In this document: positions 34,545-62,704 of the stretch, one piece after another
Position numbering within the stretch: the first letter of the stretch is position 1
How the letters are laid out: the number at the start of each line of letters is the position of its first letter
NCBI RefSeq assembly: GCF_030445035.2
Contig: NC_080683.1
Coordinates: 123,117,225 to 123,181,224, forward strand
Reading direction: 5' to 3'
Origin: Dasypus novemcinctus
Taxonomy: Eukaryota; Chordata; Mammalia; Cingulata; Dasypodidae
Length of the DNA: 64,000 nt
Translations under genes and position numbers: made by a program
Notes under the pieces: generated by a model
Database searches by the model: none
What the model saw: the letters and a program-made list of their open reading frames with translations, nothing else
Told to the model about the DNA's origin: nothing

Positions 34545-37500
34545 GTGAGCTGCGTCTCATTGCCGCCACGCCAGAGAGGTCTTGGACTGTGGGATTCACT
34601 CGATTTGGCTTTCCCAAAGTTGGTCCATGTTTTCTTGCTCTAGCTGTGTTACCAGGTTTAATCCTAAGTGAATCATGGTGGGATCTCTTAAGAGTGTTGT
34701 TAAACCAGCAGTGTTAGTCTGCTGCTGCCAACATAGATAAGAGTTTGGCTGATACCGCCTGTTACAGAAGTGGGACCAGGAGAGTGTTTCAGGGCCACCC
34801 TGTGGCAGCCAAGGGTCAGGTGGCACTTTATTTAGTGTCGGGACTGTCCTAAATCCTGAAAGGATCACGACTGAGCTCTCTCAGTTGGAGGTTTCCTTTG
34901 TCCTTGTGCTATTCAGCCCCATCTTAGGGGCTTCTGGTTGCCCTGCACATGACCACGTGGCTTAAGTCAGCATGTCCTGCATTTTGTAATTAAGAGGCAC
35001 TTCTGGTGTCACTGCACATGACCACGTAGTTTAAATCTGCACGTCGACTCCACAGCACAAGTCTTGAGAAAGCATACTGCGATTTAGGCTGATTTATTTT
35101 CCAAACCTAAGATCTTCATTTCGTTTTAGAGAAACTAATGCTTTCATAACTGTTTTAGCACATTTCTTATTATTTCAGTCATCTGTAAACAAGCGCTGAG
35201 GACTTAGTGGGAGCCCCAAGCTTGGGAGTGTGATGAAGGAAGTGGGTCTTTGGCTCCAAGGACCTGGTGGACTGAGGCAGTATGGGAGCACCCAGCCGGG
35301 CAGGGGAGGCCCCGCCCCGCACTCCCGCCAGCCCCCAGGCTTCCCCCCCCAACACGCCCCTCCCGTGTGCTGCCCCGCCTCCCCTCTGCCGTCCTCCAGG
35401 GCACCTGCTGGCATCTGAGATGCATTTCGCTTTTCAGTCTCTGGTGAGGGCCGGGAGCTTGGGTTTGCTGCCTTATGCTTGGGCCCAGGGCAGTGCCTGG
35501 CATGGGACGCAGCCGCTGAGCATGCACATGTGCGCAGGTGGTGAGGGCTCCTTCCACCCAGAGGGGCCAGCAGGGCCCGGGCTCGCTGAGGCCCGCAAGG
35601 AGGCAGGACGCCGAGGCCTTCCAGGGGGGCAGAACCTCGACGCCTTGGTTTTGTGTCTTAAAAAAAATCTGTGTTTAAGCACTGTCCAGGAGCGGCTGAA
35701 AATCCACTTTTTCTGATATCTTCGTACTACTGTTTTTAAAGTCACACTCGGTGTCTTAGGACAGCCGTCGGTGCGGCTGACTGGTGATGCGTTCTGTTCC
35801 CTCCACTGTGAGGTCGTCAGGCGCCCTGGGTGCGGGCCCTGTGGCCCTCCTGCTCACCGCGCCGTTCCGGGGCTCTGACGCTCCTGTGTGTGCACGTAGG
35901 GATGCTGGGTGGAGCTTGTCAGGTCCAGCCATGGGTCAGGAGACAGTAAAAAGAAAACTGCCCCTTTTTTTCCCCTTAGGTTTTCTGAAACTAATCCACA
36001 CCCCATAAAGGAGGATGTAGTAAAAAGCACCCAGTTAAAGAGTAATAGACCAATGCCCACTATTCCCGTTAGTAGAAGGGAGGAGCTGCCTGGGGTCAGT
36101 CCCACTTTCACTCCGCTTTCCCTTCAGGGACCTCCTGCAGCGCATCCAGCCCTTTCAGGGCAGTCATCTCCTCGCCTTTTTTTTTTTTTACCACCTTGTT
36201 AGTTTGCACAACTGAGAAATACGCACAAAGCTGACGTGGTGAGGACAGGGTTTGCTGCCAGGGGTGAAGGTTCCCAGGAGGAGGAGAGCCTTAACCTGGC
36301 TGTGGGTGAGGGCTGATGCCAGCTTCTCAATTTTCTGAGGGCCCCGTGGACGGTGGGTGAGCCAGGTGTGCAGTGAGCCCCAGGGCACAAGCTGCCGTGT
36401 TGGCAGGTGGGTAAGCCAGGTAAGCAGCGAGCCCCGGGCACAGGCCACTGCGTTGGCAGGTGGGTGAGCCAGGTGTGCAGTGAGCCCCAGGGCACAGGCC
36501 ACCGCGTTGGCAGGTGGGTGAGCCAGGTGTGCAGCGAGCCCCGGGCACAGGCCACCACGTTGGCAGGTGGGTGAGCCAGGTGAGCAGTGAGCCACAAGCC
36601 ACCGCATTGGCAGAGGGGTGAGCCAGGTGAGCAGCGAGCCCCAGGGCACAGGCCACCGCGTTGGCAGGTGGGTGAGCCAGGTGAGCAGCGAGCCACAAGC
36701 CGCCGCATTGGCAGAGGGGTGAGCCAGGAGAGCAGCAAGCCCCAGGGCACAGGCCACCGCGTTGGCGGGTGAGCCAGGTGAGCAGCGAGCCCCAGGGCAC
36801 AGGCTACCGCGTTGGCAGGTGGGTGAGCCAGGTGAGCAGCGAGCCCCAGGGCACAGGCCACCGCGTTGGCAGGTGGGTGAGCCAGGTGAGCAGCGAGCCC
36901 CAGGGCACAGGCCACCGCGTTGGCAGGTGGGTGAGCCAGGTGAGCAGCAAGCCACAAGCCGCCACATTGGCAGATGGGTGAGCAGTGAGCCCTGGGGCAC
37001 AGGCCACCACGTTGGCAGCCGACCTCCGCAGAAGGCTGCCCAAGAGCCGTTTCTGCTTTCTGCCTGCAAGCTCACCAGGCCACCTCCATCTCGAGACCAG
37101 CACAGCCCCTTCTGCAGGGGGAAGTGACTCTTCTCGGCCCGTCCTGCCTTGATAGGAGGGGGAGGGCAGGGGCTCCACAGGGACGTAGGGGAAGCCAGGG
37201 ACCCCGGGACCTGCCGTGAGCCTCCCAAGGCAGAGGGGCCCCAGGCACGCAAGCCTCCACGTCTGCCCTGAGGACCGGCCTGCCCTCCCCGCTAGCCCTC
37301 ACCCCTCCCAGCCGGCCCTCCCCCACCTGCCCTCCCCACCTGCCCCCCCCGCTGGCCCTCCCCCCTCCCAGCTGGCCCTCCCCGCTGGCCCTCCCCACTG
37401 GCCCTCCCCCCTCCCCGCCGGCCCTCCCCCGCCGGCCCTCCCCCCTCCCCGCTGACCCTCCCCCGCTGGCCCTCCCCGCTGGCCCTCCCCGCTAGCCCTC

Positions 37501-40500: not shown

Positions 40501-43500
40501 GTCTCATGAAACGAAGGGGGCGTTAGGAAAGGGACCCCAGGTGAGGCCCAAGGATCCTCCTCCCCGTGGCTGGCGGGAGGGAAGGGTGTGAGGCCGGCCG
40601 GGCGGCCCCCCACCAGCGCGGCGGCGTGCTCACCGCTGTCTCCCCACTCTCCTGCAGATGGCAGTCAGGAATTGTTTCCCTGTGAGGTCTGCGGAAGACG
40701 CTTCGCAGCAGATGTTCTGGTAAACATAAAGCCCCTCCGCTAAACGAACTGTAAAGGCAGCGACGATTAAAGACAGATGTGCAGGGCGGGGGCGAGGCCC
40801 GGGCCCTAGCCAGGCCCAGCGCGGCGGCACCTCGGACCGTCCTGCGGGGACGCAGGTGGAAGTGTTTGGCACAGCCAGCTCTTTCTGGAGCGGTTTTGGC
40901 TCTCTCGCCTTTCCCATAAGCATCAAAAATCCCAATTTCAAGGTCAAGGCACCAGGGAAATTAGCTAGTCGAGAGGAATGAGCGCTGGCGCTTGGACATC
41001 TGGAAACTTGGCTTTTAGCTTCAAATTTGTCACTAATTCCATCAAGTCCTTTAACCTTTTCTGTTTTCTGCTTTGACATATATAAAACAGAACCCTCTGG
41101 CTCCAAGGGTTTTACACAGTTTGCACAGAATAACACGTCGCGATGCAGAGTCCCGCTTACCGGATGCTAAGTCCCCTGACAGATGGCGATAAAGTTGAAT
41201 TACAAGCTTGATTTATTTCAAAATCAGGGGCTCAACGTGGCATTAGACCCCAGCATTATAAAGGGAAACCCCGATGTCTACAAAGAAAGCGGATTAGAAC
41301 AAATCTAAGATGATAATGAACATAGCTGTCAGCTGGCCTCCTCGAACCCGGGACCGGGTGGGCTTGACGGCTCTGGGCTGGAGCCCTCGCTGCCTGCGGG
41401 CAACGCGCTGCCGAAGGCGGCGGGTGCTACTGCCCGCGCAGTCTTTAAAGGGGGCTGTCTGCTCCTGGAGCTTGGCCAGGTGTAGCACTTCCTGGTACAG
41501 GAAGGGGCTCAGGGGGCCTGGGCGGCCCTGACCCTCGCATCCGTTGCCTGTGGTGGCAGCTGCCACCATGGCCGGCACTGGCTGCACCCCACCAGGGCGC
41601 CCGGGGCTCCGGGGGCTCCGTTGTGGAGAGACCCCCAACGTCGAGGGCATCTGTGGGCTCTCGAGGCTCAGGTGCCGAGTGCTGGGTCACGCGCTCCCCC
41701 TGCCCCCCCCCCCCCCCCCCGGCATTCCTGATGCCTGGCTGCTCAGCCAGGCGCAGTGACCAGTCCTGGGGGGCCCGGACCCAGCAGGCAGGCCAGCGAC
41801 GGCCCTAAGGTGGCCCGCCGCCTCCACCAGAAGGGAGGGATGTTGGACTAACCCCCCCGCGACCCCCGCCAAGAGGGCCGCCAGGCGGAGGGAGGCGGTC
41901 GGGGAGCGCAGGACCCCGGAAGGCAGGCTCCCCGGCCGCCGATGCCTTGGTCACCCTCGTCCAGCACGAACCTGGGTGGGAGGGCGCGGGCTGCCCTGTG
42001 GGGACTCAAGAGGGGCGCGGGCCTGGCACGAAGGTCAGCCGGGCCCTCGTGGCGCTGAAACTCCCCTCCTCGCCCGTTTCCAGGAAAGGCACGGGCCGAT
42101 ATGCAGGAGACTCTTCAACAAGAAGCGCAAACCTTTCAACTCCTCCAAGCAAAGAGCGCAGGGCACCGACCTCCCCTCCCTGCGGGCAGCTCTTCCCCAC
42201 AAGGTACATGTCTTCCCTGCAGCCCCGCAGCCCACTGAAGCCTATTTGGGGGCTGTCTGGTGTCATCGTTGCCTGACAGTGCAGTGGGATGTCGTGGAGG
42301 AATAATCCACCTTTACTGGTGTTTTGGGTTTTGTTTGTCATCTTGCTCACTTATATTCCCAAATGTATTTCGTATACTTTCTAGACCTGGCAAAAAGAAT
42401 CTCCTTTATTTTTTATTAGACTAGCATTCAGTCTAGCAGTTCATTTGAGAGAAAGTCACTTTTAATCTTACATTTAGTCGTCCTTTAAGCGTTGTAGACT
42501 TGTCTCTCTGATTTTTATTTTGGGTTTTCCCTCACTATTATGACTTACACAAGAGCCTTATTTTCTAAACCTCTTTCAACAATTCTTTAGACAAACAAGT
42601 TTCCACTGTACTGGGGAGAGGGAGTCTAGGGGAACTCTCTGTACTTTCTATGCAATTTTTCTCTCAATCTAAGACTGCTCTGTCCAAAAACAAAACAAAA
42701 CTAATCCTTCCTTTTCCCAAATTTCATATCCCTGTTTCCGGTAAATTCAAATCCAAGCTTAAAAAACTGTAATGGAAAGGTTTATAGTGCCATGGGTGTT
42801 GATCGCTGTTTCACTTCTCAGCCTCCACCTGTGAAGAAGTCTAGCTGGAGGCAGCAGCACCGGGAGTTCATTGATGCGATTCGGTCGGCGAAGCAGTGCA
42901 CCTTGGCCATGAAGGAGGGCCGGCCTCTCCCAGCTCCCCCGCCTCCGGCCGCCAACCCAGGTGGGTGCCACTCGGGCTCGCTTCCGGGCTCCCCTCCTGA
43001 CCAGTTAGCGCTGTGCTTGACCTCTGCCCAAGCCGTCCTGCTTCCTTCTTACGCACTCTAGCGCTCACAGGCACATGTGAAGGCCGCTTTAGCATGCACC
43101 TTCTATCTGACCCTAATTGTTTTCAATTCTCCTTAAAATGAAGCTCAGTCTCGGAGAGCCCCGCCGTGCCCCACACAGCGTCCCCACACAGCGTCCCCAC
43201 ACGTCCCGAAGGCCAGGGCTGCCCCAGGTCAGAGTGCCCCGTGCCTGGTGCAGCACGGGACTGAGCTCCTCAGAACCTCGGCCTCCCTTTCCTGTTCAAG
43301 CAATCTCACGAGGGACCGTGCAGCAAGAGGGTTATGCTGGACTATGACTGATGCCTGGGGTTACTGCCAACAACAAAATAGATGCACTGATAGTAAGGGA
43401 TGCTAGTTCTAATTTTGTGTGTGCTCTACAAAGTTCAGAAATTATACACACACACATATGTGTGTGTGCATGTTAACATGCACACAGTAGCCAGCAACCT

Positions 43501-49500: not shown

Positions 49501-52500
49501 CTGGTTCTTTCCTGTGCCCTTAGAATTGTATCCACCAGGCAAAACAATTAGCAGGTCGTTTTCATCCCTATTAGATCACTTCATCTGCGCAGGAGCTTGC
49601 CGTGGCCGCCTGATCTCAGGCTTCAGCACCAGCCGTTCACACCACTGGCCACCGAGACACGCAATGTGGCCTGGAGGGCGCGGGCGACCAGGAATCAATG
49701 GCCAAGTTTTTCCAGCAGGATACCCTATTTTCATGACTCGGTTTTTGTGACTGCATGTTGTTCTAGTCCCTGCCTTCTTAAGCAAGGTTGCCGGGGATTC
49801 AGGTTTCCGGGGTGTCACCAGTTTGTGGGGGCAGTGACGAGGAATAGCCCCTGTGAGGTCCGAGACGTCCAGTCACGCGTCCCCGGCAGCCCCCAGGGCT
49901 CCACAAAATGCTCGCCTTTTAGACGACACTTGCTTTCTCCTTTAATTTTCTAGGAGGTCTCGCCTAATCCCCCAAATTCCGCCCGGGGCCCTGGTGGGAG
50001 AGAAATGCGCCACCTGCGCTGTTGGCGGCACAAAGCCCCATGGCAGGGTGGCAAGAAGAGCCTGGACAGGAGGGCTGGGCGCTGCCCGCCCTCGCTGGGC
50101 CCGGGTGTGACTTGTGGCAGCCGTGTTCCTGGTGCGACACCTGACTGGCCAGTGGCCCCGAAGGTGGCAGCCATGTTCTAGAAGTTTCTGACAGCACCTG
50201 GGCCTGTTGGTTTTCTGAGCAGCATCACTCTTTTGGCCCCCAGAGCCCACCCTCCTGGGCCTGGCTCCCCAGGTGGCTCGGCCTGTGCAGGGGGCTCTGC
50301 AGGCCCGAGGACCCGGAGGCGGGGCCAGCTCAGGCCTGGGGCCGTGCACGGGGGCTCAGCCCGAACCCGCCCCGAGCCTGCCCTCTGCTCTCCTGGGCCT
50401 CGCTCCCCGTGTGGAATTCTTAGTCCTGGGGCCCCTCGACGAGCAGTCGCGGCCCCTGGTGTAAAGCAGAGGCTGGCGCTCAGCCTTCGTTCCATGCGGG
50501 GTTAAGGAGCAATGCCTCCTTCCAGAGTGTGGCAATTCCAGTTCTTACAACTCTTACCTTCCGGGAGTTTTCATTCTAGGAGAGGGTTTGTTCAAATGGG
50601 AAACTCCCCAAACCTTAGAGGGTGGCCTTGGGCAGCCCCTTGGCTCTGAGGCCGCGCGGCCGCACACGCCAGCCCCACCTGCGGAGGCGGGGCCGCGCCC
50701 AGCCCGGGCTCCCCGCGGGCTCGGGGCGCGGGGTCTAGCCCGCCGGGGAGCTGGGGCTCTGCTGCGTGGCCCCTGCTGGCCCTGAGGGGCCCAGGCCGAG
50801 CGGAGCAGAGCCCTGCTGCGTCCCCGGCCCTCGGCCTGGCTGGGCTCCCGGCGCCCCCGGCCCCAAGATGACCTTGGACTTCCCTCACTTCCCGTTTCCC
50901 TCCCCGGCCAAGTATGTCTGGTGATTGCAAATGAAAGACAAATGTGGAGAGTGGACACTGCCCAGAACCCCGAGGTCCTAGTGCCGGCGCAGCTGCCCGG
51001 GCGCCGGGTCCAGCGGCCGTTCTCACCTCCCGCCCCCCCTCCGCCCTGCCACCTCCCCCCGCCCACCGCTGACCTCCAGGGAAGGACCTGCCTCCCCTCT
51101 CGGAGGGGAAGGGCCGCAGCTGCAGAGGCCGTGTCCCTGCCGGGGCCCTCCCCTCCCCCTGCCCTCTGTCCCTCCAGCGCCGACTCTGGGAGCCAGGAGG
51201 GCCCCTTCACGAGGAGTCACCGAGCAGCCGCGGGGAGGGTGGGTCCAGGGGCAATTCCCCCAAGGAGCAAATAAGCAGGCCGCACCCCCATGCTCCCAGC
51301 GTTCTGGACCCCGTTGTTCGTGTCCAAGCCGAGTCGTGTCCAAGCCGAGTCGTGTCCTACTTACACATTCAGCACCGTCCACCCATAGCTGGTTTGAAAT
51401 GGCAACTGCAGACGACAGTCAGTGCCTGCACTGCAGGATGTCACTGTCACACCTCCATGCAGGTGATGTCAGCGCCTGCACTGCAGGAGGAGGTCACCAT
51501 CACACCTCCCTGCAGGTGACGTCAGTGCCCGCGCTACAGGATGTCACTGTCACACCTCCCTGCAGGTGAGTCAGCGCCCGCGCTGCAGGAGGAGGTCACT
51601 GTCACACCTCCGTGCAGGTGATGTCAGCGCCTGCACTGCAGGAGGAGGTCACTGTCACACCTCCGTGCAGGTGACGGTCAGTGCCTGCACTGCAGGAGGA
51701 GGTCACCGTCACACCTCCATGCAGGTGATGTCAGCGCCCGCACTGCAGGAGGAGGTCACTGTCACACCTCCGCGCTGCCCGAGGTCACTGTCATCCCTTC
51801 CCTGCAGATTACATCCAGTGCCCGCACTGCAAGAGGAGGTTTAATGAAACAGCCGCCCAGAGACACATCAGTTTCTGCAAGGACCAGCCTTCTCGCCGAG
51901 TCTTCGATCCAGTGCAGACAGTGGCCAAGCTGGCATCCAGAGCACAGGTAGTCCTCTCCCCAGGTGGGGAGCCCCTGCCCCTGCCCCTGAGCCTGACCCT
52001 GAGCCTGACCCCAGCCTCACGCCTAGAATAGCTCATAGCCTAGGAAGTGCGAGTGCCGAGACCTGATGCGGTGACTGATCCCTCAGGGCAGCCTGCGATC
52101 CCGGGCCCCCGCCACGCCACACGCCGGGCGCCTGGCAGCCTCGGCCGCTCTCCTCCCCGGTTTCACTGCCATCAGCTTCTTCCGTGGCTTTTTCTCTCGC
52201 TCTTGGTCTGAGTTTCCTTCTCTTCTGGAGGACTGGGGCAGGACTCACCCCCCTGGATGAAGAGGGTCACGCCTTAAGTGCTACTCACCAGAAGTCCCTG
52301 CTTGAAACGGCTCCACACCCAGGAATGGCTTAACTTCAAGAACACGCTTTCCTGGGGTCTACACAGCTTCAAACCACACTCCACCCTCTGGACCCCCAAA
52401 ATACATGTTCTTTCCATATGCAAACGCAGGGGCTGGGCGGCAGGTAGAGCAGCCCCTGTCGGGGCCCTGGGCGCCCGCGCTGTGGCCGGGGTCTCCAGGG

Positions 52501-55500
52501 AGGCCAGGTGGCCGTCCCCCGACTTCGCCTTTCCTGCCAAGGGCTGTTTTTTCCCTCTGGATTCAAAACGAAACCATCTTCAAGTGCGAAGGAAACAAAA
52601 AGGCCCCCTACCAACCACCGATGAGACCGCCCTCCTTCCCCCGCGCTTCCCCGGGTGCCCCCGGCCCGGGCCTCGGGGTGGGCTGGCAGCGCCGCGCCAC
52701 ACGCTCGGCGCCCGCAGGGCCCTGTGGGGCTGGCCCCGTGGGGCGGGCAGCCTGCGGGGGCCGGTCCAGGAGGGGGCCCAGCCCAGCGCCTGCGCCTCCC
52801 GGGGTGCTGGTGGGTGGAGGGGACCCGGCCCAGCACCCTGTGCCTCCCTGTGGTGCTGGTGGGTGGAGGGGACCCGGCCCAGCACCCTGTGCCTCCCTGG
52901 GGTGCTGGTGGGTGGAGGGGTCCCGGGTCTGCCCCTCGCACCTCAAAGTGCTGGTGGGTGGACTTGCTCCCGGCCCAGCTCCTGCGCCTCCTTGGAGGGC
53001 TGGTGGGTGGAGGGGTCCCGGCCACGTGCCTGTGACTCCTTAGGGTGCAGAGGGGTGGGGGGGGACCTGGCTAGGACCCTGCCTCTCCTTGGGGTGCTAG
53101 TGGGTGGAGGGGGACCCAGTACCTTGCACCTCTCCTTGGGGTGCTTGTTGGTGGAGCGGGACCTGGTCCCGCGCCCTGTGTATCTCCTTGGGGTGCTGGT
53201 GGCACCACTTCTTGGGCTACTGGTGGGTGGAGGGGGACCTGGCTCAGCGCCTGTGCCTCTTCTTGGGGTGCTGATAGGTGTAGGGGGACCCAGGACAGCG
53301 CCCTGTGTATCTGTTTGGGGTGCTGTTGGGTGAGGGGGAACTGGCCCCAGTGCCCTGCACCTCTCCTTGGTGTGCTGGTGGATGGAGGGACCCTGTCGGG
53401 CACCTGCACCTCCTTGGGGTGCTGATGGGTGGAGGGGGACCTGGCCAGCGCCCTGGACCTCTCCTTGGGGTGCTGGTGGTGGAGGAGGACCCAGCACAGC
53501 GCCGGCACCTCTTCTTGTGTTGCTGGTGGGTGGAGTGGGACCCGACTCAGAGTCTGCGCCTCCTTGGGGTGCTGGTGGGTGGAAGGGGACCCCACCCAGC
53601 ATCCTGCACCTCTTTTTGAGTTGTTCGCCAAAGGAGTGGGACCTGGCACACCAATGGACTCCTTGGGGTGCTGGTGGGTGGAAGGGGACCCGGCCCAGCG
53701 CCCTGTGCCTCCTTGGGGTGCTGATGGGTGGAGGGGGACCCAGCACAGCGCAGGTACCTCTTCTTGTGTTACTGGTGGGTGGAGTGGGACCCAGATCCGC
53801 GCCCTGCACCTCTCCTTGGGGTGCCCGTTGCGGGGAGGGGAGCCCGGCCCATTGCCTGCACCTCACCTTGGGGTGCTGGTATGTGCAGGGGCACCCAGCA
53901 CAGTGCCCTGCCTCTCCTTGGGGCGTGTGTGGGTGGAGTAGGACCTGGCCCAGTGCCCTGTGTCCTCCTTGGGGTGCTGGTGGGTGGAGGGGCACCCGGC
54001 ACAGAGCCCTGTGACTCTCCTTGGGGTTTTGTTTGGAGTGGGAACGGCCCAGCACCCTGCACCTCTCCTTGGGGTGCTGGTGGGTGGAGTTTTACCCGGC
54101 TCAGGACCTGCACCTCCTCGCGTGCTGCTGGGCAAAGCGGGTCCCGGCTCATCACCTGCACCTCTCCTTGGGGTGCTGATAGGTGTAGGGGGACGTGGCC
54201 CAGTGCCCTGTGACTTCTTAGGGTGCTGGTGGGTGGAGGGGGACCCGGCCCAGCGCCCTGCCTCTTCTTGGGGTGCTGCTAGCTGCTGGCCGGGGACCCT
54301 GCTCCCAGCACCGTGCACCTCTCTCCTAGGGTGCGGCTCAGGTGGGCCCCAGAAGAGAGCCGACGGTGACGAGGGCCGTGGGAGCTCTGCTGCAGAGCAG
54401 GGCGTCGGCCGCCAGCGCCCCCGCCAGGCCAGGTGAGCGCGCAGGCGTCGCTTTGCAGGTGGGGTTGGCAGGGGCTGTGGGCGCTCTGGGGTCCGTCAGG
54501 GTAGGAAGGGCTGTGCCTGTGTCGCACATGGGGGGTGCCCCCCGCAAGGGCTCTACCCACCGTCCTGCGGGCTCCACCCACCTTCTGGGGGCTCTACCCA
54601 CCATCCTAGGGTCTCTGGGTGCTCTACCCACCGTCCTGGGTGCTCTACCCACCCTCCTGAGTGCTCTGCCCACCGTCCTGCAGGCTCCACCCACCCTCTG
54701 GGGGCTCTGCCCGCCTCAGGGGGCTCTGGGGGCTCTACCCACCTCGGGGGGCTCTGCCCATGGCCCCCGCCTGCTCACTGCTGCGGGCCTGGCCGCCTCC
54801 GGGTTGGCACCCTGGCTCTGGGGAAAGGTACGGGCTCGGGACCCAGTGCTCGGCCGCCGCACAGCCGGGGTCGGGTGGCGTCTGCTGGGCCCCTCCCTGA
54901 GACGAGCGGCTTGAAAACCGGGTGCTGGTCCTCACCGGCCGCCGCGTCATCTCCAGGGCGTCCTCGAACGGGGCGAGAACTGCCTGACGCCCTCCAGGTG
55001 ACAGCACCGGAGCCCTTACGCTGTCCTAATTTCTCATCATTTGCTTTTCCATCCTTGGCCAAAACTGGACTAGACACTTCCAAAATTTCCTCACAGTCCT
55101 GCCAAGTCCTTAGCTGTGCCTTTGTCTGTAAGTTACTGTGGCAGCATATATACAGCAGACTCTCCCACTTAAACCCGTTTCACATAGACAATTCAGTGTG
55201 TCTTTATATTCACAAGGTGGCTCGACCGTCCCCACCACCCATTACCAGAACTTTCCATCACCCTCAACAAACCCTGTGCCCACTAAGTGTTAACCCCCCA
55301 CCCCACCCCGTGCCTGTGATCTGCTGCCTCTGATTCTGCGTATTCCAGTTATTTCACATATGTGAGATCACCGGTACTTATTCCTTTGTGTCTGGCTTAT
55401 TTCACTCCTGAGGCCGAGATTCATGGCCATAGTTACTTGTATCAGAACTTCATTGTTTGTTTAGGGCTGAGTAATACTCCCTGCTGTGTCCAGGCCACAT

Positions 55501-58175
55501 TTTGTCTGTGCGTGCATCAATCGAGGGACACTTGGTGGCTTCCCATTTGGGCAATCATGAACAAGCCGCGACAAGTGGCTGTGCCTCCCTCAGGTGGCCC
55601 CAGCAGCTTCTTCAGATAAACAACATTTAAAAAATCAGCATGTGAGAAATTGAGGCTCTTCACAGAACACTGGAAAATGGAGAAAACAGCAGGGAAAAAA
55701 GAAGCTCCCTAACCGCTGCCCCGCCACCGCTTGGTGACTTCCCTTCCCTCTGCCTTCTGCCGGCCCCCAGCCCCCACCCAGACTCCTCCTCCCTGGGGTC
55801 CGGGTTCCTTGGGAATGGCCCAACATGGACGCGCGTGGCCAAAGCTGCTCCTGTCCCCGTGGGTGCCCTGCCCAGCTCTGGCCTGGCGCTCCCCCGCCTC
55901 CAGCCTGAGCTCAAGGGAGCCGCATTGACCGCCTGCCTTCCAGCTGGGCAGCTGGCAGGGGGCAGCGGGGGCAGCTGGGCAGCTGGCGGGGGGCAGCGGG
56001 GGCAGCTGAGCAGCTGGCGGGGGGCAGCGGGGGCAGCTGGGCAGCTGGCGGGGGGCAGCGGGGGCAGCTGGGCAGCTGGCGGGGGGCAGCGGGGGCAGCT
56101 GGGCAGCTGGCGGGGGGCAGCGGGGGTAGCTGGGCAGCTGGCGGGGGGCAGCGGGGGCAGCTGGGCAGCTGGCGGGGGGCAGCGGGGGCAGCTGGGCAGC
56201 TGGCGGGGGGCAGTGGAGGCAGTGTGGGGAGCTGGCGGGGGGCAGCAGGGGCAGCTGGGCAGCTGGCGGGGGGCAGTGGGGGCGGTGTGGGGAGCTGGCG
56301 GGGGGCAGCGGGGGCAGCTGGGCAGCTGGCGGGGGGCAGTGGAGGCAGTGTGGGGAGCTGGTGGGGGGCAGCGGGGGCAGCTGGGCAGCTGGCGGGGGGC
56401 AGTGGGGGCGGTGTGGGGAGCTGGCGGGGGGCAGCGGGGGCAGCTGGGCAGCTGGCGGGGGGCAGTGGGGGCGGTGTGGGGAGCTGGCGGGGGGCAGCGG
56501 GGGCAGCTGGGCAGCTGGCGGGGGGCAGTGGAGGCGGTGTGGGGAGCTGGCGGGGGGCAGCGGGGGCAGCTGGGCAGCTGGCGGGGGGCAGTGGGGGCGG
56601 TGTGGGGAGCTGGCGGGGGGCAGCGGGGGCAGCTGGGCAGCTGGCGGGGGGCAGCGGGGGCAGCTGGGCAGCTGGCGGGGGGCAGTGGAGGCAGTGTGGG
56701 GAGCTGGCGGGGGGCAGCGGGGGCAGCTGGGCAGCTGGCGGGGGGCAGTGGGGGCGGTGTGGGGAGCTGGTGGGGGGCAGCGGGGGCAGCTGGGCAGCTG
56801 GCGGGGGGCAGTGGGGGCGGTGGGGGAGCTGGTGGGGGGGCAGCGGGGGCAGCTGGGCAGCTGGCGGGGGGCAGCGGGGGCAGCTGGGCAGCTGGCGGGG
56901 GGCAGTGGGGGCGGTGTGGGCAGCTGGCGGGGGGCAGTGGAGGCGGTGTGGGGAGCTGGCGGGGGGCAGCGGGGGCAGCTGGGCAGCTGGCGGGGGGCAG
57001 TGGAGGCGGTGTGGGCAGCTGGCGGGGGGCAGTGGAGGCGGTGTGGGGAGCTGGCGGGGGGCAGCGGGGGCAGCTGGGCAGCTGGCGGGGGGCAGTGGGG
57101 GCGGTGTGGGGAGCTGGTGGGGGGCAGCGGGGGCAGCTGGGCAGCTGGCGGGGGGCAGTGGGGGCGGTGGGGGAGCTGGTGGGGGGGCAGCGGGGGCAGC
57201 TGGGCAGCTGGCGGGGGGCAGCGGGGGCAGCTGGGCAGCTGGCGGGGGGCTGTGGGGGCGGTGTGGGCAGCTGGCGGGGGCAGTGGGGGCGGTGTGGGGA
57301 GCTGTTTAGATGAAGGTGTGGCCCTCCCCGCACCCTCCCAGAGAGGCTCTTGGCCCCGCGGGCGACCGGGGGACGTGGCTCCTTCTCGAGGCCGGGGCAG
57401 AACAGGGCCCTGCCGTGGCGGTGGGGACACAGGCTGTGTTTCGGGACCCTGGTCTGGGGCAGCTGGGGCAGCTCTGCTTTAGCCCGGGGCCAGTGGTGTC
57501 GGGGCGGGACCGTCCCTGCTCCGGTGTCCCCCTTGGTAGTGAGTGTCAGGGTCCCTGCTGCCCTGCACAGAGGGGACTCCCTCAAGCATCCCTCAGCATC
57601 TCCCCCAGGAAACCGCCCCTGGAGCTGGCTCTCGGCGGCCTCCGGGTGGCCTGGCGGGAGCGCACGGTGTTTGGTTCCTCCCCTCAGAATATGCCATTAG
57701 CAAGAGGTCCTGAGCAGACCAGCCCTGCCCCCAGGCCCGGCCATCTGCCCCTTCCCTGCGCCCGAGGCCCTCCCCTGAGGCACTGCTGGGCCGGCAGGAA
57801 GAGCCACAGGCCCAGGGGAAGAGCCACAGGCCCAAGGGAAGAGCCACAGGCCCAGAAAAAGAGCCACAGGCCCAGGGAAGGAGCCACAGGCCCAGGGGAG
57901 GAGCCACAGGCCGAGGGGAGGAGCCACAGGCCGAGGGGAGCTGGGAGCCCCGTCTGCCGCAGGTCAGACTCCTGGGGTTCACCTCCAGGAGTGGGAAGGC
58001 TAGGCTTGAACTCAGCGGGATTTCGGTCTTTCCTTTTACTTTCCTTGCTGTTTTCCTTGCTGTTTTCCTTTGACATAGTAACAAATCTGTTTATGTTTGC
58101 AAAGGATTAGCGGTGGACCCGGATCCTGGAGCGACTCTCAGACGAGGAATTACTGAATCTCCTAAAGAAGAGTAA
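34517..58175 (+). CDS. ZC2HC1B: ZC2HC1B, C2HC-type zinc finger protein (whole gene, 7 coding exons)
   Basis: Member of the ZC2HC1 (FAM164) family, small proteins with two zinc fingers and no established biochemical role. Coding exons are 34517-34544, 40658-40719, 42084-42203, 42822-42960, 51808-51947, 54330-54432 and 58105-58175. All have GT-AG borders in phase, giving 663 bases and 220 residues (human 222). Finger 1 is C18-x2-C21-x11-H33-x3-C37 and finger 2 is C121-x2-C124-x11-H136-x3-C140, with all ligands intact. Between them lies a basic stretch and a Pro-rich stretch (residues about 106-116). The C-terminus is more diverged (ends ESPKEE, human ends SSKKD). The frame is intact despite several minisatellites in its introns. 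It runs head to tail behind LTV1. Confidence 0.93.
34925..35050. repeat. Two-copy imperfect duplication
   Basis: A stretch of about 60 bases occurs twice in tandem. Both copies contain CTTCTGGT, CTGCACATGACCACGT and a TTTAA/CTTAA block followed by a GCA run. In ZC2HC1B intron 1. Confidence 0.6.
35060..36350 (+). other. ZC2HC1B: ZC2HC1B intron 1, 5' part
   Basis: GC-rich non-repetitive sequence with no recognised exon. Open frames here have no splice or family support. Confidence 0.4.
36353..37017. repeat. 54-base minisatellite, about 12 copies
   Basis: Unit of 54 bases including GTTGGCAGGTGGGTGAGCCA and GGTGAGCAGCGAGCCCCAGG. Two or three units are shortened or variant (for example near 36590-36610 and 36760-36780). 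The period is 18 codons and no frame contains a stop, so open frames run through it on both strands (up to 354 codons on the minus strand, repeat AHLAHPPANAVACALGL). Each unit carries donor-like CAG|GTGAGC and CAG|GTGGGT. In ZC2HC1B intron 1. Confidence 0.92.
37287..37735. repeat. C-rich array with a 200-base higher-order repeat
   Basis: Short units such as CCCTCCCCGCTGGCCCTCCC fill the region. The phrase GCTAGCCCTCACCCCTCCCA starts at 37291 and again at 37491, and the sequence after each is nearly the same, so a unit of about 200 bases was duplicated on top of the short repeat. Strongly strand-asymmetric (C-rich plus strand, G-rich minus strand). Confidence 0.85.
37824..37910 (-). mobile_element. 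DAS-SINE monomer
   Basis: Plus strand shows AAGGAGGTATCAGGAAATGA, ACCCGGGACCTCGTGCATGG and GAAGCAGGTGCTCAGCCACC, the minus-strand DAS monomer. Located just 3' of the C-rich array. Confidence 0.88.
37985..38430 (-). repeat. Old LINE-like remnant
   Basis: Begins GAGCAATAGCTTGGCTGGGC and AAAGAATTCTAGGTTGTAGA, phrases that recur in many mammalian repeats of LINE type. Later parts (TGTTGGGAAATTCACAACGA, TCGAACTCCTGTTATTCGGC) continue the pattern. Exact family not certain. Confidence 0.5.
38440..40210 (+). other. ZC2HC1B: ZC2HC1B intron 1, 3' part
   Basis: GC-rich from 38500 to 39500 and AT-rich from 39740 to 40020, where the sequence looks like an old decayed repeat. I see no exon. Confidence 0.4.
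40215..40330 (-). repeat. L1 3'-end fragment (antisense)
   Basis: TTTAACACCTTAGTTTGAGA, then TAATGATAGATTCAGAGAGA and GCACAGAGATCCCACG follow the start of an antisense L1 3' UTR. Short. Confidence 0.5.
40658..40719 (+). CDS. ZC2HC1B: ZC2HC1B coding exon 2 (residues 10-30)
   Basis: Acceptor CTCTCCTGCAG, donor CTG|GTAAAC. Encodes DGSQELFPCEVCGRRFAADV plus Leu, including the two Cys ligands of zinc finger 1 (C18, C21). Confidence 0.95.
42084..42203 (+). CDS. ZC2HC1B: ZC2HC1B coding exon 3 (residues 31-70)
   Basis: Acceptor CCGTTTCCAG, donor AAG|GTACAT. Encodes ERHGPICRRLFNKKRKPFNS and onward, with the His and last Cys of finger 1 (H33, C37). Confidence 0.95.
42822..42960 (+). CDS. ZC2HC1B: ZC2HC1B coding exon 4 (residues 71-116)
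   Basis: Acceptor CACTTCTCAG, donor CCAG|GTGGGT. Encodes PPPVKKSSWRQQHREFIDAI, RSAKQCTLAMKEGRPLPAPP and a short Pro/Ala tail. Confidence 0.95.
43586..43958 (+). mobile_element. Chimeric DAS-SINE, near full length, perfect target-site duplication
   Basis: Starts GGGAAACGGACTTTGGCCCA (box A region) and carries GTCCGCGGTTCGAGCC (box B). A non-tRNA part of about 180 bases follows (GAGTGCCACGCCACGCAGGG, AGCCGCCCAGCGCGAAAGAA), then an AATAAAAATAAATC tail. The 16-base GAAATAAACAGATTTA flanks it on both sides (43570-43585 and 43959-43974) without a mismatch. Both the structure and the perfect duplication point to a fairly recent insertion. Confidence 0.95.
44527..44858 (+). mobile_element. DAS-SINE, diverged chimeric copy
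   Basis: GGGGAGCCGGCTGTGCCTCA, then CACAGGGGAGGCCCTGGGTT (box B-like) and an A-rich 3' part with AATAAATAAAAATAAATGCA. Inserted in the old L1. Ends in a G-run. Confidence 0.75.
45573..45872 (+). mobile_element. DAS-SINE dimer
   Basis: Two monomers, the first from GGGAAGTGGATGTGGCTCAA and the second from GGAGTGGACATGGCTCAGGC, each with a box B-like block (AGAGGTCCAGGTCCAGTCC and GGCCCCAGGTTTGGTTCCC), then a linker with AAGAATAAAT. Flanks AAAAGATGCCTACT and AAAAGCACACCTACT look like an imperfect target-site duplication. Nested in L1. Confidence 0.88.
48090..48660. other. Intronic CpG-rich block
   Basis: After the L1 remains the sequence becomes abruptly GC- and CpG-rich (for example GGGCCGCGGGGGCACGGGCG). 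No splice-supported exon. It could be an orphan CpG island in ZC2HC1B intron 4. Open frames of 175-359 codons on the minus strand here are composition artefacts. Confidence 0.45.
49025..49420 (+). repeat. L1-type 3'-end repeat, third copy
   Basis: Homologous to 5045-5935 in opposite orientation. Shared text includes GCCCTGAGCCTCA, TTATTGGACTT, ATCAACCACCACACCAGGGA and GATTAGAGTGGACTTACTGA. Ends early compared with the other copies, in a short A-run. Confidence 0.75.
49440..50225 (+). other. ZC2HC1B: ZC2HC1B intron 4, unclassified part
   Basis: Mixed composition. No exon, RNA gene or named repeat recognised. Confidence 0.35.
50228..51290. other. Intronic CpG-rich block
   Basis: CpG-dense sequence including GAGGCCGCGCGGCCGCACAC and TCGGGGCGCGGGGTCTAGCC. 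No coding exon seen. A candidate orphan CpG island or unannotated promoter within ZC2HC1B intron 4. Confidence 0.45.
51418..51807. repeat. 49-54-base minisatellite, seven copies plus a partial, derived from the exon 5 border
   Basis: Units start GTCAGTGCC or GTCAGCGCC at 51418, 51468, 51521, 51570, 51623, 51677 and 51730. A partial unit then leads directly into ZC2HC1B exon 5. Each unit has TGCAGGTGA, then GTCAGCGCCTGCACTGCAGG and AGGAGGTCACTGTCACACCT. The exon 5 border reads TCCCTGCAG|ATTACATCCAG then TGCCCGCACTGCAAGAGGAG, nearly the same as the repeat. The array therefore looks like an expansion of acceptor plus exon start. Confidence 0.9.
51808..51947 (+). CDS. ZC2HC1B: ZC2HC1B coding exon 5 (residues 117-163)
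   Basis: Acceptor CTTCCCTGCAG, donor ACAG|GTAGTC. Encodes DYIQCPHCKRRFNETAAQRH and ISFCKDQ, the whole of zinc finger 2 (C121, C124, H136, C140). It then continues through FDPVQTVAKLASRAQ. Confidence 0.95.
52800..54329. repeat. About 50-base minisatellite, about 30 copies, ending at the exon 6 acceptor
   Basis: Unit contains CTCCTTGGGGTGCTGGTGGG, then TGGAGGGGGACCCGGCCCAG and CGCCCTGCAC. Period ranges from about 45 to 60 bases. It runs without a gap into CACCTCTCTCCTAG|GGTGCGG, the exon 6 acceptor and first exon bases, which look like one more unit. Two units keep a TTAG|GGTGC acceptor-like border (AG at 53042-53043 and 54220-54221), the rest have TTGG. Open frames up to 370 codons are repeat by-products. 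Confidence 0.9.
54330..54432 (+). CDS. ZC2HC1B: ZC2HC1B coding exon 6 (residues 164-197)
   Basis: Acceptor CTCTCCTAG, donor CCAG|GTGAGC. Encodes GAAQVGPRREPTVTRAVGAL, LQSRASAASAPARP. Human has GRAQMGPKKEPTVTSAVGAL. Confidence 0.92.
54545..54765. repeat. Degenerate tandem repeat
   Basis: Repeated CTCTACCCACCGTCCTGGG and CTCCACCCACC units of about 25-30 bases, irregular. Directly 3' of exon 6. Confidence 0.75.
55130..55600 (-). repeat. L1 3'-end fragment (antisense)
   Basis: In ZC2HC1B intron 6. Plus strand shows ACCCATTACCAGAACTTTCC, TGTCTGGCTTATTTCACTCC, AGGGCTGAGTAATACTCCCT and CACATTTTGTCTGTGCGTGC, the antisense L1 3' UTR order. Confidence 0.8.
55944..57305. repeat. 31-base G-rich minisatellite, about 44 copies
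   Basis: Core unit GCAGCTGGGCAGCTGGCGGG followed by GGGCAGCGGGG, spaced 31 bases. A variant with GTGGGGGCGGTGTGGGGAGC alternates from about 56215 on. G-runs of 4-6 on the plus strand throughout. No unit has a stop in any frame, so frames of up to 641 codons stay open on both strands; none is a gene. In ZC2HC1B intron 6. Confidence 0.95.
57801..57940. repeat. 20-base minisatellite, seven copies
   Basis: GAGCCACAGGCCCAGGGGAA with starts at exactly 57801, 57821, 57841, 57861, 57881, 57901 and 57921. No length change between units. In intron 6, 165 bases before exon 7. Confidence 0.95.
58105..58175 (+). CDS. ZC2HC1B: ZC2HC1B coding exon 7 (residues 198-220 and stop)
   Basis: Acceptor TTTGCAAAG completes Gly198, then LAVDPDPGATLRRGITESPK, EE and TAA. 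Human reads LAMDPASGAKLRQGFSKSSK. Position and phase agree; divergence is higher than in the fingers. Confidence 0.88.
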
Positions 58176-58720: not shown

Positions 58721-59479
58721 TCATCAGTCTGTATGATAACACTTGACTTAAAGAGTCACTTTAATTTTTTTTAATGGGCATTTAACAAGTTTTTTAAAAA
58801 AATGTTGCTCTGATACAGGGAATTCCTGTGATGCCGGCCTGTTGACGGCCCTAGCTGTGTCCCGGCAGCGCTGTGAAGCCACTTCAGCACGTTTTTCCAG
58901 TGGACGTGAAGCCGTAATTAGTGACGTCCCTGTTCTAAATGTCCACCCGCACAGCACAGTGGGGGGCCCCAGGCTCCTTTTCAGAACTCACTGCAGTGGA
59001 GCGGACAGCCAACAAAGACCTTCCCCGTAAACTTCCCGTAAATTCTTCTATACTTACACTTTTTAATCTAAGAACTTTATTTTTCTTGAACTCAAGAAAA
59101 TTTTGGTTAGGAAAGGTGGGCTGTTTTCCTGGCTGACCTGAAGGCTACACGCGTAGTGCGGCAAGCAGCGCAGGGGCCGCGTGCCAGGCCTGCTGCAGGT
59201 GAGCCAGGCGCGTGCAGGGAGAGCGTGTGGAGAGCTCAGCAGCGCGCCTGGCACGGGAAAGGCCGGCGGGGAATGGGAGCCGGCCCAGCCCGCGCCACAG
59301 CACCTGCGCCCCCAGCGCCCCACTTCTGGCCCAGACGCCTTTGTAGGGCGCCTTTCTCTCCCCTCCCCACCCTGCTTACCTGTGAGACAACGAAAAAGCC
59401 TCATCAGGTTTAAGGGGTGAGGCTTTTGGAAGGCCCCTGGTGCTGTGAATTTAACAGAACCGTCTGAAGTCATAATTAC

Positions 59480-60301: not shown

Positions 60302-61199
60302 TCAGCGGAAGGCGTGGTGGAAGTGCGGCAGGATGGCGGCGCCCGCGCCCGCGGGGAAGAGCGGCGCCAGCGCGGGCAGCGGCGCCAGGCCCAGGCCCAC
60401 GGGCAGCGCCAGCGCCTGCTCGGGCGGCGCCAGGTGGCCGAGGTGCGGCGCCAGCGCGTCGCCGGCGCCCAGGGGCAGCGTGGCGGCCGCGAAGGTGCCG
60501 GGCGCGGGCGGCAGCTGCCAGAAGCCGAGCAGCGGGCCCAGCTCGAGCGCGGCGGGCGCGGGCGGCGCGGGGCTGGGCTTGCGGGCCGGGCCGGCGAGGG
60601 GCGCGCCGGGCAGGGGCACGAGTGAGGTAGGCGCGGCCTGGAAGAGGGCGGCCGGCGGGCCGGGCGGGGGCGGCGGCCCGGCGAGGGGCGGCGCGGGCCC
60701 CGCGCCCTGGCCCAGCAGCTCCTGCGGGTGCGTCTTCTTGGTGTGGCGCGTCAGGTGGTCCTTGCGGCCGAAGCGCTGCGCGCAGAACTGGCACAGGAAG
60801 TCCTTGCAGCCCGTGTGCACGACCAGGTGGCGCCGCACGTCCTTGCGCGTGTGGAAGCGGCGCTCGCAGTGCTCGCAGCGGTGCTTGCGCTCCCGGGGCC
60901 CGCCGGCGCGGGCGCGCTCCTGCGCGTGCGCCTTGAGGTGGTGCAGCAGCCCCTCGGGGCTGGCCAGCTCGCGCCCGCACACGCCGCACGTCAGGTCGCC
61001 CTCGCTGGCGGCGTGCAGCGCCAGGTGCCGCTTGTAGCCCAGCGCCGTGAGGTACTTCTTGCCGCACTGCTCGCAGCCGAAGGCCAGCTTGTTGGGGTTG
61101 TGCGTCTGCAGGTGGTTCTTGAGGTGGTCCTTGCGGTTGAAGTTCTTCTCACAGTGCGGGCACTGGTGCAGCTTCAGGGCCGAGTGGGTGGCCATGTGC
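60302..61199 (-). CDS. PLAGL1: PLAGL1 (ZAC1) last coding exon: zinc fingers 3-7 and C-terminus
   Basis: PLAGL1 is a nuclear C2H2 zinc-finger transcription factor that restrains growth, and is imprinted (paternally expressed) in mammals. The exon begins after CCGCCCCTGCAG and completes a split Arg codon, then HMATHS closes finger 2. Fingers 3-7 are intact: [95 protein letters not shown]. The tail carries [13 protein letters not shown] and ends [12 protein letters not shown], which identifies PLAGL1 and not PLAG1 or PLAGL2. The linker between is rich in Ala and Pro and about 100 residues shorter than in human. Composition is extremely GC-rich. No stop or frameshift is seen in this exon. Confidence 0.95.
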
Positions 61200-62704
61200 C
61201 TGCAGGGGCGGCAGGGGCGGGGGCGGGGAGGGCGGTCAGGGGCGCGGCCTCCCCGCTCACCTGCCTGTCTCTCCAGACCCCGTCACACCGGGCCGCAGTG
61301 GGGACAGGAGCGCCAACGGCACAAGGCCAGGGCCGCCCTGGGAAGGACGCGTCCTACGTGGCGGAAGCGCCCTTCCCGGGGTTAGATGACGCCCTGGGTG
61401 TCCAGGGGCCACTCTGCCTTCTGGACAAAAAGCCAGGGACTGGGCCCTCCTGGGTGGGACCAGGACCCCAAAGGAGGGTGCTCAGGAGCCTCCCAGATGG
61501 GCCTCGGGGAGAGCGTCAGTGGACACCACGTGCCGGCCCCCCACCCCGAGCCCACACTGCCACCCCCCTCTGGCCTAGCTTCCTTCTCTGCACCCCTGAC
61601 GAAGGGCAAATAGTTTATAATTGGCAAAACCCGAAAAGATACATTCTAGGAGAGCTAAGCTGCAACATGTCAGCTCTTCTTTGACCTTCGTCCTTAGTCT
61701 TCGCTTCCGGGACGCGCCGTCGCCATCCCGGTCCATCGGGAACGTCAGGGGAGCTGCTGTGTGTTTATCCCATCTCTTCACAGTGCCACCAAACTCTACC
61801 CTCCAGCTCCGAGACGTGCTACGAGGAAGCCCTGGTTTTGTCGCCCTTGGACTTTAAAAGGCTCTTCCTAGGAAGTGCGCGGGGCGGTGAGACGCCCAGC
61901 GTGGCCCAAGTGCTTCTGACCAGAGAACTGCGGCCAGCTCGGGCGCCCGGCCTGCCTCCTGCCAGGCGCTGTCTGGGCAGCTCGTCACCAGGGGCTGCGG
62001 CTTGTCCTACTGACAGCTTAAGTGCACAGCCCCCACAGCACAAAGAAACGTGCCCACCCCACCCTCTAGGAGGGCGAGGGTCTCCCTAGGCCAGCTCCTC
62101 GAAGCCAGAGCAGCCCACGCCCTCCCCCACACTGGGAGCCGAAGGGTGACTGGGAGCCAGCGTGGAACCCGGCCCCAAGTCCCAAGAGCTAGCCTGAACC
62201 AAAGAGTGGCTTCCTCAGAAAGCGGGCAAAGCCTCCTCCCTGCCCTGCCCAGCGCCGGGGGCAGTGTGTGAGGCCACGGGGGCAAGCGGGCAGTGTAGGC
62301 GGGAGGTGGGCTGGCGGCTCCAAGGGGACCCGGCGTGTCCTGCCGAGCGCCCAGTGACACCTGCCATGTGGCCTGACTTCTGCAGGGGCCACGCTGGCTG
62401 CGGCCTGGGCCCCCGGCCTCGCCCTGCCTCTGGCGCCCGCGGCCTCCTTCCAGCACCCTCGTTGGGCTGCGGTCATCTCCACCTGGTCCCTTCCAAGTGA
62501 CTGGGCCCCTGGGGAGGCGGCCTGAGGCCTCCCCACACTGACCTCCACCATCCCCTACAGTCACCTGCCCAGGTCCCGGTGGACAGCACCGCTGCCACGG
62601 CCCAGCCACTCCAGCCGTGGTCCGCGGGCGCTCGAGGCCTGGCCAGGCCCGACGGCGCCACCACGAGGGCCGCGCAGGCGGCTCCGGGCACGCCGGCCCC
62701 TCAC
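61200..62704 (-). other. PLAGL1: PLAGL1 intron between the last two coding exons
   Basis: Acceptor CCCTGCAG at the 61200 side, donor GTGAGG at the 62704 side. GC-rich, no repeat or further exon recognised. Confidence 0.75.

Follow-up and report, generated by a model that had tools for sequence, protein, structure and literature searches.

A minisatellite in intron 4 of a ZC2HC1B-type gene of Dasypus novemcinctus appears to consist of tandem copies of that gene's own exon 5 splice border, and as its units copy this border, the gene would carry a row of look-alike splice sites upstream of the authentic acceptor. The window, i.e. the whole stretch of 64,000 nucleotides that was analysed, represents 123.1-123.2 Mb of a 127.1-Mb contig within a genome of 3.61 Gb. 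Tandem Repeats Finder (TRF) places the array at 51418-51771 (Period: 53; 6.8 copies; 87% matches), and in full it spans positions 51407-51780, comprising six complete units as well as partial ones. A sequence-only reading had previously proposed that a minisatellite before exon 5 resembles the exon border and was derived from the exon's acceptor and zinc-finger start. Alignment, shuffled controls, a window-wide BLAST comparison and a genome search all support this derivation, and the array, together with the copied border, proved larger than had been described.

The host gene is encoded on the forward strand, with exons 2 to 5 arranged in order: exon 2 at 40658-40719, exon 3 at 42084-42203, exon 4 at 42822-42960 and exon 5 at 51808-51947. 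These exons were located by translation and the use of family motifs, and their ends are those inferred from the translation. Exon 4 terminates in CAG and supplies the first base of a split Asp codon, while exon 5, which is 140 nt in length, is entered in phase 1 and left in phase 0; its frame is open with that of exon 4 and the in-frame join reads ...PPPPAANPDYIQCPHCKRRFNETAAQRHISFCKDQ.... The intervening intron 4 is 8,847 nt in length. Comparison of the exon 5 frame with the Pfam family zf-C2HC_2 (PF13913) yielded a bitscore of 25.7, slightly below the curated cut-off of 27. An open reading frame coding for a PLAGL1-like C2H2 protein, the second half of which is very rich in Ala, Gly and Pro, is present on the reverse strand (60302-61282), a position that presumably agrees with the mammalian gene order near ZC2HC1B. 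A search of solved structures with this protein matched only other C2H2 proteins; the names ZC2HC1B and PLAGL1 are both provisional assignments, in agreement with the family and domain matches. The ordered exons, the putative C2HC finger and the neighboring PLAGL1-like reading frame fit the identification of the gene as ZC2HC1B in the sequence-only reading.

When cut at GA(G/T)GTCAC, the array resolves into six full units, u1-u6 (51437-51751, forward strand), starting at 51437, 51490, 51540, 51592, 51645 and 51699 and measuring 53, 50, 52, 53, 54 and 53 bases, respectively. Each is made up of an intron-acceptor half followed by an exon-start half. They are preceded at the 5′ edge by a partial unit (51407-51436; matched by a two-unit query at 51407-51438) and followed by a seventh unit, u7 (51752-51780), of only 29 bases, which lacks the TGCAG|GTGA part, presumably through deletion. 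An eighth piece begins at 51781 and passes directly into exon 5, and the exon border is therefore itself a unit. The 5′ half of the units is homologous to the last 27 bases of intron 4 (51781-51807; the GAGGT edge, pyrimidine tract and CAG) and their 3′ half to the first 33 bases of exon 5 (51808-51840; YIQCPHCKRR after the split Asp codon); these two stretches, both in register with the array, make up the copied border. The alignment between units and border proceeds from GAGGTCACTGTC on the intron side through CTGCAG to GCACTGCAAGAGGAGGT on the exon side, the exon half of u2 requiring a gap, and the unit-type states that differ from the native border include GTGA and CACACCTCC. At the unit junctions, exon-side text is followed by GAGGT and then by intron-side text, and the copied segment has GAGGT at either edge. 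The sequence-only reading had counted seven units of 49-54 bases; the present analysis gives six full units (50-54 bases), the shortened seventh and the partial unit at 51407. Over seven segments, GTCAGTGCCCGC(A/G)CT occurs in its exact wording in one and in a relaxed form in all, GCAGGAGGAGGT in five and CCTGCAG in two; the 27 copied intron bases had been overlooked. A separate 16-bp tandem repeat (51318-51357; 2.5 copies) is located approximately 50 bases 5′ of the array.

The border sequence (51781-51840) shares 73-82% identity, with gaps counted, with the six full units. Against 1,000 dinucleotide shuffles per unit, alignment scores of 44-63 for the full border were reached by none of the shuffles in any of the six units, with the shuffled sequences scoring approximately 14 on average and no higher than 29. 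The intron half alone was likewise reached by 0/1,000 shuffles in all six units, and the exon half alone by 0/1,000 in five units and 3/1,000 in u2. Minisatellites abound in the window (TRF gives 51 rows if overlaps are counted), and a GC-rich repeat might resemble a GC-rich exon by coincidence; the shuffles, the arrangement of both halves in the same order and register, and the comparison with other arrays in the window argue against this and render a chance resemblance vanishingly improbable. In this comparison, ten larger arrays, obtained by selecting and merging TRF rows and omitting short arrays, were masked and searched against the window by BLAST. The best match of the intron 4 array outside its own extent is to 51781-51840 (Bitscore: 56.3; e-value: 4.8e-10), the next attaining 28.3 bits; none of the other nine exceeds 39.2 bits, and that match lies near the array that produced it.

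Other repeats are present in the window. A 54-bp minisatellite of 11.5 copies (36352-36953) has a consensus unit with a donor-like CAGGTGAGC, and within the window no source beyond its own array could be found above 24.7 bits. Two arrays with units of 49-51 bp adjoin each other downstream of exon 5 in the same gene and together measure approximately 1.5 kb (52769-54278), and a G-rich 31/63-bp array (55941-57304), in which the short unit is repeated 43 times with 86-92% matches, is accompanied by a related piece at 57449-57509.

At the level of the genome, a 109-base two-unit query (e-value ≤ 10) returned five matches, four within the array and one to the border at 51781-51840 (Bitscore: 48.2; e-value: 0.0012, with one candidate region scored), in a search which skips common words and scores the best candidates only. 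Within the scope of such searches, a genome-dispersed repeat family was considered and rejected, as a 501-base query (e-value ≤ 0.001) matched one place and the matches of the 109-base query all fall at this locus; the array is thus found at one place in one assembly.

The direction of copying was evaluated for the exon half using paralogs within the same genome. A genome search with the exon 5 protein identified three places, namely the window itself, a locus (L003) whose exon shares 61% protein identity over 46 amino acids and which we take to be ZC2HC1A-like, and a weaker paralog (L004; 55% over 29 residues; e-value: 0.02) which also codes for DYIQCPHC. The L003 exon has its acceptor at the same phase as exon 5, and 32 of its first 40 bases are identical to those of the native exon, compared to 23/40 in L004. 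Each of the six units differs from the exon by substitution at seven or eight exon-half sites, gaps excluded. At these sites, L003 carries the native letter at six to seven and the unit letter at one in every unit, while L004 carries the native letter at four to five and the unit letter at one to three. Both paralogs thus mostly carry native letters, suggesting that the coding text preceded the array, and the exon-to-array direction put forward in the sequence-only reading is supported for the exon half. Under the opposite order, the gene would have received part of an older array by copying, or array text would have entered the border through gene conversion. The one unit letter per unit in L003 and the one to three in L004 would be in keeping with this, and the polarity covers the exon half, the 27 intron bases having no paralog. 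Against it, the predominantly native letters of the paralogs hold in all six units, and the exon text codes for a finger common to two paralogs elsewhere in the genome. Furthermore, this finger weakly matches a distant solved protein (9y6s_4E; e-value: 0.008; the top match being an unrelated C2H2 protein), and an older array is considered very improbable.

The subsequent history of the array can be followed less closely. The native letter is missing from all six units in 9/60 columns, and ten of the fifteen unit pairs are 88-97% identical, which suggests, without proving, a single founder with later spread. The five pairs involving u2 reach only 78-83%, barely above the identity between native border and units (73-82%), which leaves a single founder unproved. 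A tree of the units that included the exon border, as had been called for in the sequence-only reading, yielded support for none of its four inner branches (29/55) and placed u5 beside the exon, and no claim is therefore based on it. Furthermore, the left edge of the array begins mid-unit, which simple duplication would not produce; as u7 in addition lacks TGCAG|GTGA, deletions are assumed at both places.

Splice-site content was assessed with unfitted acceptor and donor matrices. On this scale the native exon 5 acceptor scores 5.89, those of exons 2, 3 and 4 score 5.43, 5.74 and 4.80, respectively, and the six decoy acceptors in the units score 3.57-4.99, values that 0.7-1.8% of 705 upstream AG sites in the same intron attain. 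The designation of the units as decoy acceptors in the sequence-only reading is thus apt as regards their sequence. Where the exon has ATTA, the units carry GTGA after the decoy AG, and the full units can therefore also be read as donors: CAG|GTGA is found in 6/6 full units and is missing from the shortened u7. The first such predicted dual site, CAG|GTGATG, lies at 51460-51468 (acceptor AG at 51462) and like sites occur at 51515, 51617, 51670 and 51724, all five with a donor score of 3.23. The remaining one (51563-51571; AG at 51565) has the perfect sequence CAG|GTGAGT and combines an acceptor score of 4.99 with a donor score of 8.51, exceeding each of the 383 GT sites that were scored in the part of intron 4 preceding the array as well as the four inferred donors of the gene (0.72-5.94). 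Within the array, six sites pass both thresholds (acceptor: 3.5; donor: 3.2); a further three are found on the forward strand and three on the reverse strand. At 59379 on the reverse strand, beyond the 3′ end of the PLAGL1-like reading frame, a strong acceptor abuts a donor in tttcgttgtctcacag|GTAAGC (7.01/7.35 with the same matrices).

These scores raise the question of whether the decoys are used. Should exon 4 be spliced into the units at some rate, frame-shifted transcripts would result and reduce the output of the gene, and the length of the array would tune it. Such leakage could take the form of a 5′-extended exon 5 or of a cryptic exon at 51463-51565 (forward strand; 103 nt) or 51516-51565, the former predicted to shift the frame and to meet a stop in exon 5. 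Among eight modelled isoforms (six in which exon 5 is extended to a decoy and two with a cryptic exon), seven are frame-shifted, while the eighth (345 nt) retains the frame and includes a stop; a stop is met by the end of exon 5 in five and not in the other three. The overlap of the decoy scores with those of the gene's own acceptors and the strength of the donor at 51565 would favor leakage, and in the human ABCA7 VNTR a copied donor is described as used with a shift of the frame (PMC5954066). Against this, the scores derive from unfitted matrices and the decoy pyrimidine tracts contain purines. Lancelet genes with comparable repeats, termed mirages, are furthermore reported to yield regular mRNA, without disturbance (PMC3087553, PMC3902484), the former adding that the mirage copies could serve as cryptic sites. 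The local folds of the six decoy acceptors (-7.8 to -13.5 kcal/mol, versus -3.0 for the native site) would also speak against their use, but do not go beyond those of shuffled sequences. Masking of the individual decoys by hairpins was rejected on this basis (z-scores: +0.31 to -1.48), and the fold of the 461-base region 51400-51860, which is better than 100/100 shuffles (z-score: -2.67), represents only a weak lead for masking. Taken together, such use of the decoys is considered unlikely.

The dual sites could also form a chain of recursive splice sites derived from the exon border, by which the decoy array would repair its own errors. As exon 4 ends in CAG and GTGA follows the decoy AG, a transcript mis-spliced to one of the full units, whichever it is, would again contain a donor, CAG|GTGA. 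A second splice from this recreated donor to the true exon 5 acceptor would then remove the remaining 83-345 nt before exon 5 and produce a normal mRNA. The change from ATTA to GTGA would then have been favored because it renders the decoys harmless. Unit u7, which would be too near exon 5 for removal in a second step, has lost its acceptor; this fits the proposal, but is a single event. Juxtaposed acceptors and donors, a feature of ratchet points, are present in the array as scored by the unfitted matrices, with a strong site at 51565 only. Ratchet points belong to very long introns, and by the customary notion of length the 8,847 nt of intron 4 fall short of this. In Drosophila, an acceptor and a donor abut in ratchet points, as they do in 6/6 full units here, and ratchet points are mainly found in long introns and are conserved (PMC8605326). 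Such self-repair is regarded as improbable; if true, recursive splicing would illustrate one means by which arrays of this kind evade selection.

Minisatellites that supply several splice sites are known from other genes. That of IFI6 (6-16) provides several repeated donor sites and differs from the intron 4 array in its location on the donor side and its shorter unit. Closer in design are the lancelet mirages of BflGb6 (globin) and Adh3, which tandemly repeat the 3′ end of the intron together with the 5′ start of the exon beside the true border, as here, and retain the AG/GT signals in many copies, as CAG|GTGA is retained here (PMC3087553). The BflGb6 repeats are 81-100% identical, vary in number between haplotypes and have units of 150-160 bp, those of Adh3 being 10-72 bp, compared to 50-54 bp in this mammal-type gene (PMC3087553); the design has been proposed in lancelets as a route to new introns. 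Two further features of the mirages, a repeat unit that crosses the intron-exon boundary (27 + 33 bases) and an array that adjoins the authentic border in register, are found here. Unlike the mirages as there described, the units have left the exon state in the nine columns noted above and carry GTGA behind the decoy AG of every full unit. In the human ABCA7 intron 18 VNTR, the splice site at which the minisatellite begins is likewise repeated, but this is a donor site, the unit measures 25 bp and is present in about 12 to 427 copies, and the text consulted mentions no coding sequence from an exon within it (PMC5954066). Exon-intron tandem repeats in human segmental duplications likewise arise by minisatellite expansion at a border, with new splicing patterns and introns claimed, but they differ in belonging to recent primate paralogs, half in coding exons; the available text mentions no acceptor-derived zinc-finger case (PMC2812944). 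A literature search by titles and abstract openings, conducted mostly outside subscription journals, found no acceptor-derived minisatellite in ZC2HC1B. Judged by its sequence features, the intron 4 array is of the lancelet type of border-derived minisatellite, a design that is already known.

We consider it highly probable that the array arose by duplication of the intron 4/exon 5 border and expanded thereafter, with its decoys mostly ignored and the array largely neutral. A segment of approximately 55 bases across the border would have been duplicated in tandem, between breakpoints sharing the word GAGGT, a step that would have involved microhomology. The extra copy would have become intronic, and unequal exchange or slippage would have expanded it to a minisatellite, the exon copy meanwhile being kept under coding constraint. 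As the duplicated border would have founded the units, each full unit would combine an acceptor-like site with a piece of former zinc-finger code. We infer a single founder, the microhomology step, the disregard of the decoys by the spliceosome and the near neutrality of the array; weak tracts and competition by the native site would keep the decoys silent. The array is thus most likely a neutral by-product of duplication that does little. It appears to represent a clear case of a minisatellite seeded by a splice border in a mammal-type gene, in which a donor-like site appears to have arisen within a copied acceptor, and may offer a system for testing how the spliceosome selects the right site among near copies.
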